DNA from: a bacterium
Lineage (GTDB): Bacteria > Myxococcota_A > UBA9160 > UBA4427
Reading direction: 5' to 3'
Length of the DNA: 64,000 nt
NCBI GenBank assembly: GCA_024742285.1
Contig: JANSYR010000022.1
Location: 1-64,000 of the forward strand
Part shown: positions 2,671 to 61,051 of the stretch, piece by piece
How the letters are laid out: each line of letters opens with the position of its first letter
How positions within the stretch are numbered: position 1 is the first letter of the stretch
Position numbers and translations under genes: made by a program
The notes under the pieces: generated by a model
What the model was told of the DNA's origin: nothing
Database searches by the model: none
Seen by the model: only the letters and a program-made list of their open reading frames with translations

Positions 2671-4089
2671 CTAGCGCTTGGCGTCGCCCGCCCCTCTCGC
2701 GGGGGACCCCGAACCTGCACTCCCCCGCTCCGCGCCGCCGGACGCCCCACCGGCCCCGGGTGCCGAGCCGCCGCCCCCCCGACGCAACAAGGAAGGTCCG
2801 ACGAGCTCAGCGCCGATCAGGCTCCGGCGGATCCAGTCGAGGCCGACCTGGGCCGTCAGCCGGCGGTGTCGGCTCCGGTCCACCTGGAAGACGAAGGAGT
2901 CGGCGTGGGTCCCGGCCTCGCTCGCCAGTGCGATCCAGACCAGGCCGACCGGCTTCTCGGGCGTTCCGCCCGTCGGACCGGAGATTCCCGAGGTCGCGAT
3001 TCCGAAGTCGCTCCCGAAGCGTTCGCGGACCCCCTCCGCCATCGCGCGGACCACGGGCTCGGAGACCGCACCATGGGTCTCGAGCACGTCCTCGGGCACG
3101 CCGAGCATCGCCGCCTTCGCTTCGTTCGTGTACGCGACCATGCCGCCGAGGAAGTAGGCGGAAGAGCCGGGGACGTCGGTGAAGCGTTCGGCGATCAGAC
3201 CGCCGGTACAGGACTCGGCCGTCGCGACCGTCTTGCCGGCCTCCGCCAGCAGATACCCGACGACACTCTCCATCGTGTCCTTGCTGTCGGCCGAGCCCAT
3301 CCCCTCTTCCCGGGAGTAGACCACCGCCCCGAGCCGATCCCGGATCGCGGCCACCGCCAGGGCGATCTTCGCGTCGGCCTCTTCCGCGGTCGCCGCCCGG
3401 GCGACCGGGCGCAGGAAGTTGTCCGGGAAGGTCGTTCGGAAGCCGAGCTCGACCTCGCCATCGCGCATCAGGTCGCGCAGCTCCTCTTCGAGGGTCGACT
3501 CCCCGAGACCGAAGGTCGCGAGGAGCTGGGCGCGGACGACCCGGCGGGCCGCTCCCCCCTCTTCCTCGGCGGCGAGCCGCGTCGCGATTCGGGGCAGGAC
3601 CTGCTCGTCCATCATCCGGTCGAGCTCACGCGGCACCCCGGGCATCGCGAAGAACGTCGCGCGCCCCTCGCGGATCGAGAAGCCCGGCGCGGTCCCGATC
3701 GGGTTCTCGAGGACGTCCGCCTCCTCCGGGAAATACGCCTGCTTCTTGTTCGCATCGACCATCGCTCGCCCGACCCGGGAGAAGAAGGCCTCGATCGCCG
3801 CGAGGGACGGCGCGTGGAGCTCGAGCTTGCGACCGAAGGTCTCCGCCAGCACCTCGGTCGTCAGATCGTCCCGCGTCGGCCCGAGGCCTCCGGAAACGAG
3901 GACGAAATCGCTCCGCTCGGCGGCCCGCAGAAAGGCGTCGCGCATGTCGGCCGGATCGTCGAGGACGGAGACCTGATGGCGCGTGTCGAGGTCGTGGAGC
4001 AGCAGCCGCTCCGCGATCCGCGCCTTGTTCGAGTCGACGATCTCGCCGCGCATCAACTCGTCGCCGATGGTGATGATCTCGGCGTTCAC
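2671..4089 (-). CDS. cinA: CinA-family protein, NMN deamidase / competence-damage protein
   Basis: Two-domain CinA of 472 residues. Residues about 1-170 form the MoaB/MogA-like (COG1058) domain with [13 protein letters not shown] and [11 protein letters not shown]. Residues about 272-430 form the CinA C-terminal nicotinamide-nucleotide amidase domain with TAESCTGG and [11 protein letters not shown]. The family hydrolyses NMN to nicotinate mononucleotide and/or ADP-ribose, recycling pyridine nucleotides. The start is a GTG that overlaps the pgpA stop by 4 bases (GTGA), implying translational coupling. A ~40-residue Gly/Ser/Ala-rich tail (from about 430) is extra relative to the family and probably disordered. 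recA follows on the same strand. Confidence 0.93.
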
Positions 4090-4907
4090 GCGACGACTCC
4101 CCGACCCACACCGACGAACCCTGCGGCGGCACCCTCCGCTCCGCTCCCGCGAAGAGAGCCCTCAGCGACTAGAAGAGAGCCCTCAGCGATTGGAAGAGAG
4201 CCCTCAGCGACTAGAAGAGAGCCCTCAGCGATTGGAAGAGAGCCCTCAGCGACTAGAAGAGAGCCCTCAGCGATTGGAAGAGAGCCATCAGCGACCAAGA
4301 GAGAGCCTTCAGCGACCAAAAAAAAGCAGGTTGGCAGCACGCCCACGAGCGCGCCGTACACGCCCGCCACCACGTCGTCCGCCATCACCCCGAGTCCTCC
4401 TTCGAACCGGCGCTCGGCCCAGCGGACCGCTCCCGGCTTCCAGATATCGAACACCCTGAATGCGACGAATGCGGTCACGACCGCCACCGACAGCGAAAAA
4501 GAATCGAGGCGCGGCAGGAAGAGCGTGACGGGCACGAGCGCGATCCACTGGCCCACGACCTCGTCGATCACGATCCGACCGTCGTCGTGCCGTCCGAAGA
4601 TCCGCTCCGCGCGTCCGGAAGCCCAGGTCCCGAGTGCGAAGGTCCCGACGATCGCGACGGCGAGCATCCCGAGCAGCGTCACGGGCTCGGTCTCCGAACC
4701 GAGCGACGCACGCGCGACCGCGAAGAACGCCAGCGCCGCCACGAGCGAGCCCATCGTGCCGGGCGCGACGGGAGCGAGACCTGCGCCGCCGACGACGGCG
4801 ATCCACCGGGCCGCTCCATCGAGAAGGAGATCGAGCAGCGACGCGTCGCTTCGAGGCGCGAGGGCCGGTTCTGTACCGGTTCGAGGGGCGATGGGAAATC
4901 CCACCTC
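4086..4907 (-). CDS. pgpA: Phosphatidylglycerophosphatase A with a C-terminal heptad-like repeat tail
   Basis: Inner-membrane enzyme that dephosphorylates phosphatidylglycerol phosphate to phosphatidylglycerol. The family core is present: Gly-rich GLAPVAPGTMGS start, DDGRIVIDEVVGQW active-site segment, FDIWKPGAVRWAE and GGLGVMADDVVAG, with several hydrophobic helices. The core ends around the LPTCFF segment. It is followed by eight consecutive seven-residue units of the form xxAEGSL (one ADGSL), encoded by the 21-bp DNA repeat at 4151-4318, then a Gly/Ala-rich end. Normal PgpA is about 160-170 residues. The start is uncertain: reading is open to a TTG at 5000, and a GTG at 4907 is used here. 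It overlaps cinA by 4 bases. The repeat tail is unusual and its function is unknown. Confidence 0.85.
   Translation of the reverse strand, partial: EVGFPIAPRTGTEPALAPRSDASLLDLLLDGAARWIAVVGGAGLAPVAPGTMGSLVAALAFFAVARASLGSETEPVTLLGMLAVAIVGTFALGTWASGRAERIFGRHDDGRIVIDEVVGQWIALVPVTLFLPRLDSFSLSVAVVTAFVAFRVFDIWKPGAVRWAERRFEGGLGVMADDVVAGVYGALVGVLPTCFFLVAEGSLLVADGSLPIAEGSLLVAEGSLPIAEGSLLVAEGSLPIAEGSLLVAEGSLRGSGAEGAAAGFVGVGRGVVA
4151..4318. repeat. 21-bp tandem repeat, 8 units, in frame in pgpA
   Basis: Eight head-to-tail 21-bp units. Odd and even units alternate between two versions (ending GACTA or GATTG), giving a 42-bp higher-order period. The two units nearest 4318 are diverged. Only the minus-strand frame used by pgpA stays open across the array; the other two minus frames hit a stop in each unit. 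Length is a multiple of three, so copy-number changes would not shift the pgpA frame. Confidence 0.95.
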
Positions 4908-5106
4908 ATGGGGACCGCAGATCGGGGGAATCGGCGGCGTCTTCGTCGCGGGGGGGCGTCGAACGGTCGAAAAGTAGCCGTCAGCGTCGAGCGCCGTCAA
5001 TCGAAAAGGCGAAAAATCGACGAAAACCGGAGATCGATCGGAGATGCCGGCAGGGGTTCAGGCCCTCGCCGGAGAGGCCGATGAACCCCACCAGGACCGG
5101 CAACCG

Positions 5107-10706: not shown

Positions 10707-11010
10707 GGGAAAACCTCGACGAGTTCCCCTCGACCGTTTCACACCGCCCGCGGGCCGGCAATCGCGAACGACACCGGGGATCGCAATCCTTCGTAACCGA
10801 ACCGCGAGATTTCCGATCGCGGACGATTCTCCATCCCGGGGGAAAGAGGCTCCCGAAGTGTCGTCGCCGGCGGTTCGGTGAACGCCTTCCGGATCGCGTC
10901 GTCACGAGCCTGTTAGGCTGCTTCCGGTCGGCGGGAAACCGGAAGCCTGCCGCAGCGAAGGCGTGCGAACCAACGCGCGAGGGAGGACCGGGGCGATCCG
11001 AAAGCCGTTG

Positions 11011-11150
11011 CAGCGGAGCGATCAGGTCAGAGCGACTTCTCGCAGCAACGGAGCGATCAGGTCAGAGCGACTTCTCGCAGCAGCGGAGCGATCAGGTCAG
11101 AGCGACTTCTCGCAGCAGCGGAGCGATCAGGTCAGCGCGACTTCTCGAAG
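11011..11150. repeat. 35-bp tandem repeat spanning the mreB stop codon
   Basis: Four near-identical copies with starts of the shared word GAGCGATCAG at 11016, 11051, 11086 and 11121, exactly 35 bp apart. The copy nearest mreB contains its last codons and TGA stop; the other three repeat that stop region downstream. Because 35 is not a multiple of three, these copies are effectively 3' untranslated sequence. The rest of the 10707-11010 gap shows no gene. Confidence 0.95.
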
Positions 11151-12164
11151 AAGCGAGATGTTGTCGAGGGCCTTGCCGGCGCCGTGGACGACCGCCGTGT
11201 AGGGGTCTTCGCTGCGCAGGATGGGAAGCCGCGTCTCCTGGCGGAGCAGGTGGTCGAGATCGCGCAGGAGCGAGCCCCCGCCCACGAGCATGATGCCGCG
11301 GTCGACGATGTCGGCGGCGAGCTCCGGCGGCGTCTTCTCGAGCGTCAGGTGGACCGTCTCGACGATCGCGTGGATCGGCTCGACCAGCGCTTCGCGCATC
11401 TCGTCGCTCGTGGTGGTCACGACCTTCGGGATGCCGGCGACGAGGTCGCGGCCCTTGATCTCCATCTCTTCGATCGAGCTCTCGGGAGACGCCGACCCGA
11501 TCGTCATCTTGACCTCTTCCGCGGTCCGCTCGCCGATCAGCATGTTGTACTTGCGCTTGACGTAGTTGATGATCGCCTCGTCCATCTTGTCGCCGCCGGT
11601 CCGGATGGAGCGGCTGGTGACGATGCCCGAGAGCGAGATCACGGCGACGTCGGTCGTGCCGCCGCCGATGTCGACGACCATGTTGCCCGTCGGCGCGGTC
11701 ACGTCGAGGCCGGCGCCGATCGCCGCCGCCATCGGCTCCTCGATCAGGAAGACCTCGCGGGCGCCGGCGGAGAGCGCCGACTCGCGGACGGCGCGCTTCT
11801 CGACGCTGGTGATGCAGGGGGGGACGCAGATCACGATCCGCGGTCGCGCGAGCGTGCGCCGGTTGTGCGCGCGCTGGATGAAGTAGCGGAGCATCGCTTC
11901 GGTGATCTCGAAGTCGGCGATCACGCCGTCCTTGATCGGGCGGACCGCGTCGATGTTGCCCGGCGTGCGCCCGAGCATCTCCTTCGCTTCGTGGCCGACG
12001 GCGCGAACGCGGGCGGCCTTGCCGCCGGTGTCCCGCGTGACCGCGACGACCGAAGGCTCCGAGCAGACGACGCCCTTCCCCTTGCTGTAGACGAGCGTGT
12101 TGGCCGTTCCCAGGTCGATCGCGAGATCGTGCGAGAACATTCCGGCGATGGCGTCGAGCAGCAT
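11127..12164 (-). CDS. mreB: Rod-shape-determining protein MreB
   Basis: Bacterial actin homologue that organises cell-wall elongation along the inner membrane. The 345-residue product has the actin-fold phosphate-1 motif (LAIDLGTANTLVY), DVIG-type segment GNMVVDIGGGTTDVAV, and adenosine motif GIMLVGGGSLLRDLD. The N-terminus has a short hydrophobic extension usable as a membrane-binding helix. mreC, mreD, pbp2 and rodA, which usually follow mreB, are not adjacent. The 3' end is embedded in a tandem repeat. Confidence 0.96.
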   Translation of the reverse strand: MLLDAIAGMFSHDLAIDLGTANTLVYSKGKGVVCSEPSVVAVTRDTGGKAARVRAVGHEAKEMLGRTPGNIDAVRPIKDGVIADFEITEAMLRYFIQRAHNRRTLARPRIVICVPPCITSVEKRAVRESALSAGAREVFLIEEPMAAAIGAGLDVTAPTGNMVVDIGGGTTDVAVISLSGIVTSRSIRTGGDKMDEAIINYVKRKYNMLIGERTAEEVKMTIGSASPESSIEEMEIKGRDLVAGIPKVVTTTSDEMREALVEPIHAIVETVHLTLEKTPPELAADIVDRGIMLVGGGSLLRDLDHLLRQETRLPILRSEDPYTAVVHGAGKALDNISLLREVALT

Positions 12165-60645: not shown

Positions 60646-60975
60646 ATGCCTCCCGAAGACGCCCACGTCCCGAGCCGGATCGAGCAGCACGATGCGCGGA
60701 CCCTCGCGATCGGCTGGGCCGACGGCGGTGAGAGCCTGATCGACGTCCGAGCGCTCCGCCTGGCCTGCGCCTGCGCCAACTGTGTGGACGAGTGGAGCGG
60801 CAACCCGCTCCTCGATCCGCAGGAGGTCCCCGCGGACGTGGCACCGCGCGGGATCCAGCCCGTCGGCCGCTACGCGATCCAGATCGCGTGGAGCGACGGC
60901 CACGACACCGGGATCTATCCCTTCGAGCGCCTCCGCGGGCTCGCCGACGACGGCCTCCTCGAGCCCCTCGGCTAA
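60646..60975 (+). CDS. DUF971 domain protein
   Basis: 109 residues, essentially one DUF971/GBBH-like N-terminal domain: LAIGWADGGESLIDVRALRLAC, a CACANC cluster that may bind metal (the family uses a similar Cys/His pattern), PRGIQPVGRYAIQIAWSDGHDTGIY and PFERLRGL. The domain also forms the N-terminus of gamma-butyrobetaine hydroxylase and is found fused to or next to Fe-S factors. Its 3' end is in a 26-bp repeat. Confidence 0.85.
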   Translation: MPPEDAHVPSRIEQHDARTLAIGWADGGESLIDVRALRLACACANCVDEWSGNPLLDPQEVPADVAPRGIQPVGRYAIQIAWSDGHDTGIYPFERLRGLADDGLLEPLG

Positions 60976-61051
60976 TCCTTCGACTGCGGGCGCTCGGCTA
61001 ATCCTTCGCCTGCGGGCGCTCGGCTAATCCTTCGCCTGCGGGCGCTCGGCG
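60967..61051. repeat. 26-bp tandem repeat spanning a DUF971 stop codon
   Basis: Three complete copies plus a partial one; the word CTCGGCTAATCCTTCG begins at 60967, 60993 and 61019, 26 bp apart. Each full copy holds the gene's TAA in context, but only the first is the true stop. The period is not a multiple of three. Confidence 0.95.

Follow-up and report, generated by a model that had tools for sequence, protein, structure and literature searches.

The heptad-repeat tail of a bacterial PgpA is probably the translated part of a gene-end tandem repeat array

In the 64,000-nucleotide stretch of DNA analysed here (the window), the gene for PgpA carries, in its 3′ part, a run of repeat units that are translated as heptads, which raises the question of whether the repeat belongs to the protein or to the DNA that encodes it. 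The locus comprises the following features.

4086..5000, minus strand: pgpA open reading frame of 304 codons, with a TTG start as listed (the true start is unsettled); from the ORF list and its translation.
4338..4805, minus strand: PgpA catalytic domain PF04608, residues 66-221; from a Pfam profile match.
4318..4325, minus strand: T8 run (A8 on the plus strand) that sets the frame into the array; the window contains one other A/T run of at least 8.
4151..4318, minus strand: eight tandem 21-bp units that are read as heptads; from direct reading, TRF and 18-mer matching.
4086..4089, minus strand: GTGA in which the pgpA stop overlaps the cinA start; the array, inside pgpA, is 61 nt before it.
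2671..4089, minus strand: cinA, the next gene of the apparent operon; from the ORF list and a Pfam profile match.

The gene order on the minus strand is pgpA, cinA, recA. The match to PF04608 covered profile positions 1-138 of 141 (E 4.8e-39, 134 bits against a curated cut-off of 28), and after the MADDVVAG motif the protein continues into a C-terminal extension of 91 residues, ending at the stop-start overlap with cinA. The first-pass annotation had described eight 21-bp units at 4151-4318, in frame and C-terminal to the PgpA core, and both points were borne out. TRF called the array at 4151-4315 (period 42, 3.9 copies, 95% match, score 295) and at 4151-4316 (period 21, 7.9 copies), in agreement with direct reading, and the unit 18-mer gave 8 matches at no more than 3 mismatches against 0.17 expected in shuffles, with 0 of 100 shuffles reaching 8. 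The array is read within the 304-codon frame after the domain, and only the actual pgpA frame is open through it, the other two containing stops. The translation is LVAEGSL LVADGSL PIAEGSL LVAEGSL PIAEGSL LVAEGSL PIAEGSL LVAEGSL, so that the proposed run of xxAEGSL heptads holds for seven heptads, the remaining one being ADGSL. Likewise, the alternation claimed for odd and even units is strict in units 1-6 (A/B three times, GAAGAGAGCCCTCAGCGACTA / GAAGAGAGCCCTCAGCGATTG) and is lost in the two units closest to the PgpA core, 7 and 8, which have diverged and both end in GACCA. Six units fit the suggested amplification as 42-bp pairs, with the latest copies on the cinA side. A 5-bp repeat (TRF score 28) lies behind the array in the same tail.

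An AlphaFold2 model (25 sequences) gave a confident PgpA core, a last helix (201-237) that extends into the first repeats, and pLDDT below 50 for residues 245-304. Since a tail without homologues scores low anyway, the low pLDDT is weak evidence of disorder; the model suggests that the heptad tail is probably unstructured. A coiled coil or folded repeat was considered and set aside, the helix reaching only the first repeats and residues 245-304 scoring as above. At the other end of the protein, the pre-domain stretch (window 4820-5000, minus strand; ..DGYFS.VRRPPATK...GFPIAPRTGTEPAL) is alike in the congener G004 and has low confidence in the model; this could reflect a conserved upstream DNA element or a genuine N-terminus.

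Comparison of the pgpA-cinA junction covered 36 rows, the source genome included, of which L260 is apparently the same contig as G024. The stop-start overlap was found by motif in 17 of the 36 rows and is visible in the printed DNA of six more (G009, G011, G017, G018, L250, L254); it is absent in nine (G013, G019, G023, G024, G026, G029, L255, L256, L260) and its status was undetermined in four (G002, G010, G022, L251). The 91-residue tail is the longest of 35 readable PgpA tails, the 34 others having 15-71 residues. Within the genus, pgpA was detected in 7 of the 8 other genomes, and all six congeners readable through the pgpA tail keep the overlap, while none of the six has an AEGSL-type heptad. 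A functional heptad was not supported: the relatives' tails are of other sequence, and we found no evidence of selection on the heptad. In other tails of the genus TRF detected weak repeats, of 12 bp in G002, 6 and 12 bp in G003 and 9 bp in G007; all these periods are multiples of three and the sequences are unrelated to the source array, which suggests that small repeats arise repeatedly at the pgpA 3′ end. In the seventh congener, G002 (contig 118, L009), the junction contains a run of N with a 12-bp tandem repeat on both sides; a long array probably broke the assembly there.

A search of the source genome with the array returned three further places, with periods of 19, 21 and 23 bp and a common core. 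This core, GCTGARGGCTC in the pgpA sense, is exact in seven of the eight pgpA units (spanning 4156-4313) and has one mismatch in the remaining unit. Using a search pattern of two GAGCCYTCAGC cores 4-20 bases apart, with the reversed pattern as control, we found 18 matches in 8 arrays of the source genome. The pattern occurred in 7 of 9 genomes of the genus (source included), 19 of 30 genomes of the host's taxonomic family, 20 of 79 genomes of the order, 19 of those within the family, and 25 of 377 genomes of the phylum sample, that is, 19 of 30 in the family versus 6 of 347 outside it. The reversed control gave 0 matches in the genus, family and order searches and hit 3 of 377 genomes in the phylum sample. 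Spacer and period varied between loci, units being 15-28 bp long with only the 11-12 bp core shared, and the period was not a multiple of three in 72 of 147 steps of less than 30 bp between cores. The array, first read as a feature of the protein, is better seen as DNA: it belongs to a dispersed family of repeats whose other members lie mostly at or after gene stop codons.

Single cores, with array copies counted, were in clear excess over the reversed control in G000 (90 vs 24) and G003 (42 vs 9), in slight excess in G001 (28 vs 17) and G006 (28 vs 20), and not in excess in G002 (32/30), G004 (14/14), G005 (15/22), G007 (6/12) or G008 (8/6). The idea that the arrays are generally seeded by a loose single-copy motif at gene ends was rejected, as the excess appeared in only four of these nine genomes. 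A second set of arrays, with periods of 26-29 bp and a partly palindromic GCCTGCGGGCGCTCGGC-like stretch in common (by eye), was also seen, and two of its four arrays span or touch a gene stop:

60967-61050 of the window: array of the second set.
G000 C11:1034-1173: array of the second set.
G000 C7:276767-276872: array of the second set.
G000 C7:280578-280676: array of the second set.

Read on the other strand, the searched core is GC-TGA-RGGCTC and holds a TGA. We related the arrays to gene ends in a sample of 63 arrays from 14 genomes, comprising the window and 60 stretches chosen among the matches listed; it leaves out G009, G018, G033, G035, G037 and several arrays of G002, G010, G011 and G031. 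Genes were called with a simple caller of our own, trained on the retrieved sequences, which missed pgpA; pgpA was added by hand for the orientation count and for the 864-kb array count below, and not for the stop count. The stop codon of a co-oriented upstream gene coincides with a core TGA in 31 of the 63 arrays; these stop cores comprise 24 exact and 7 degenerate ones, and the stop core is the first of its chain in 29. In a further 12 arrays a co-oriented stop falls in the range from 134 nt upstream to 32 nt downstream of the first core, and in 20, among them the window's, no co-oriented stop was called nearby. Where an exact core serves as the stop, it was the first exact core in 24 of 25 arrays (binomial p = 6e-11, taking by our own reckoning that a random-frame ORF stops at the first exact core about 1/3 of the time). 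In the separate orientation count, the upstream gene was co-oriented in 44 arrays and opposite in 3, and 16 arrays had no upstream gene within 200 nt. Core arrays are therefore mostly downstream of a co-oriented gene. The next gene was co-directional in 29 of 44 arrays, so the arrays are not plain operon terminators, and array ends lay from -16 to more than 2000 nt from the next called gene. Outside the core only the following pyrimidine was conserved (92%), although the core is itself the search pattern and its sharp edges are partly built in.

Placement relative to gene ends was also examined for arrays of all kinds. An 864-kb portion of the source genome contains 37 arrays outside genes: 19 cover a stop and no start versus 5.9 expected, with 0 of 300 placements giving as many, and 1 covers a start and no stop versus 6.4 expected. 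The stop excess was not seen in 400 kb of G012 (5 of 17 vs 3.1 expected) or in 400 kb of the outgroup G019 (0 of 4), and stop enrichment of all arrays was accordingly dropped as a general trait. Both core arrays in the G012 stretch span stops.

In 22 of 24 arrays (two were dropped because the first gap exceeded 30 bp), we compared the 6-12 nt before the stop with the spacer before the second core and found 102 of 185 positions identical (55%), against 56.5 of 185 (31%) when spacers were permuted (largest 81.9; 0 of 2000 permutations as high). The agreement is uneven, being near perfect in some arrays and poor in several. With a core TGA as the stop in about half of the arrays examined and spacers that resemble the gene's last codons, gene ends appear to have been duplicated in tandem, the stop staying with the first copy. 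For one array-bearing gene of the source genome, no array was present in the ~107 nt past the stop of its eight best congeneric matches (by eye, assuming orthology). The window holds a comparison case with a different repeat unit.

11010..11155, minus strand: 35-bp array that starts in the last 29 nt of a gene that we take to be MreB-like, with the stop repeated; from TRF and gene calls.

The congener G003 (L336) carries a separate two-copy duplication of the end of its own MreB-like gene, in other sequence.

Like the stop-anchored arrays, the pgpA array has tandem GCTGARGGCTC cores within the 3′ end of a gene in the same orientation, and, as in other arrays, the ten bases ahead of its first core, TTTTTTGGTC, resemble the following spacer, TCTCTTGGTC, with 8 of 10 positions identical (by eye). 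It differs in that the gene stops at 4086 and not at the TGA of its first core. With T8, pgpA reads GCT GAA GGC and misses the core TGA, and since 21 bp is a whole number of codons, no stop intervenes before the cinA overlap. A run of T9 or T6 would bring a stop in the first core, and one of T7 or T10 a stop in the first A unit. Two histories would fit: in-frame growth of the array within pgpA, or an earlier pgpA that stopped at its first core until the T run changed and the overlap was regained.

Taken together, these results make it probable that the repeat tail is the translated part of a gene-end tandem repeat array and not a selected protein domain, although pgpA breaks the rule of the family in that its stop is not in the first core. 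Local tandem duplication of the gene terminus, by slippage or unequal recombination, would build such arrays, and terminal duplication would be cheap because the first copy retains the stop. In pgpA the frame would skip the TGAs, and the 21-bp period would let it run on to the stop in the cinA overlap. We presume, in line with PMC12548453, that this overlap means translational coupling here. The pgpA frame is probably under selection through the overlap, which, with such coupling, would likely have kept the frame. The tail, probably unstructured, follows the catalytic domain and would be tolerated for that reason; it is most likely a by-product. What local duplication leaves unaccounted for is the 11-bp core common to unrelated gene ends. 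Tentatively, a sequence-directed process acting on GC-TGA-RGGCTC at stops might build the arrays from the last codons of the host gene in the host's family.

Other explanations attribute a function to the repeat. That the tail is a functional PgpA module, for example a membrane-surface or partner-binding repeat, would account for a near-perfect in-frame array with both alternative frames stopped, for a frame open 91 codons past MADDVVAG to the cinA overlap, and for the small 12-, 6- and 9-bp repeats in the tails of G002, G003 and G007. However, the heptad is missing from the six readable congeners, the same DNA core recurs at gene ends with periods that often do not preserve a reading frame (the 72 of 147 steps), and, less tellingly for a tail without homologues, pLDDT is low over residues 245-304; we regard such a module as quite unlikely. 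Alternatively, the arrays could be RNA or translation elements at gene ends (acting in binding, mRNA stability or stop reinforcement) that are selected genome-wide, with pgpA having one. The shared core with free spacers would suit this explanation, bearing in mind that the core is the search pattern, as would the sense orientation (44 to 3) and the near confinement to one family. Adjacent units can pair, and folding z-scores were negative in 8 of 10 arrays, three of them, including the window's, at or below -2.3. Yet z-scores across the ten ranged from -2.8 to +4.6 with no common structure, so RNA structure was rejected as the basis of the arrays; the co-directional gene that often follows and the one array-bearing gene whose eight best congeneric matches carry none also count against RNA elements, which we consider unlikely.

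Two further possibilities concern the T run. Homopolymers are error-prone in sequencing and the source assembly is a draft of 56 contigs; a true run of T9 (or T6) would have pgpA stop on the first-core TGA, as in the 24 of 25 arrays with an exact-core stop, and would leave the array as an untranslated spacer before cinA. Against such an error, the assembled frame reaches precisely the cinA-overlapping stop that the six readable congeners keep, a coincidence expected about 1/3 of the time by chance, and we think the error improbable. It is very unlikely that T8 acts as a frame switch, in which T8 would give a long-tailed PgpA ending on the cinA start and the gain or loss of one T a stop within the array, uncoupling cinA.

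If the tail is indeed the translated part of a gene-end array, an odd protein tail becomes a testable rule: in one Myxococcota-like family, repeats are anchored on stops by an 11-bp core that contains the stop, and they resemble the last codons of the host gene. Were the core the target of an enzyme or process, this would be a new route of bacterial gene-end evolution. For annotation, the case warns that such repetitive tails are not necessarily domains. Among open-licence papers, those on PgpA included, we recognised no description of stop-anchored core arrays; a 2025 paper deals with phase-variable tandem repeats in M. tuberculosis (PMC12817950).

The nearest described case that we found for the core arrays is the MIRU of mycobacteria, which the available portions of two sources describe as dispersed short tandem repeats at gene junctions that little disturb the neighbouring frames, with units of 40-100 bp, inserting at start codons with a small ORF (PMC12548453, PMC2734929). 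By these partial accounts, the core arrays resemble MIRU in being dispersed and placed at gene junctions, with stop-start overlaps and coupling involved. They depart from MIRU in unit, with 15-28 bp of which 11-12 bp are shared in place of 40-100 bp (PMC2734929), and in site, since they anchor on stops and their spacer resembles the end of the host gene, whereas MIRU insert at start codons. PgpA itself belongs to PF04608 by its catalytic domain and differs in the 91 residues after MADDVVAG. With bacterial VNTRs and minisatellites, the pgpA array shares a head-to-tail arrangement, recent copies that are nearly identical and edge copies that have degenerated; unlike them, it has a core that is common to unrelated loci and genera and is anchored on stop codons.
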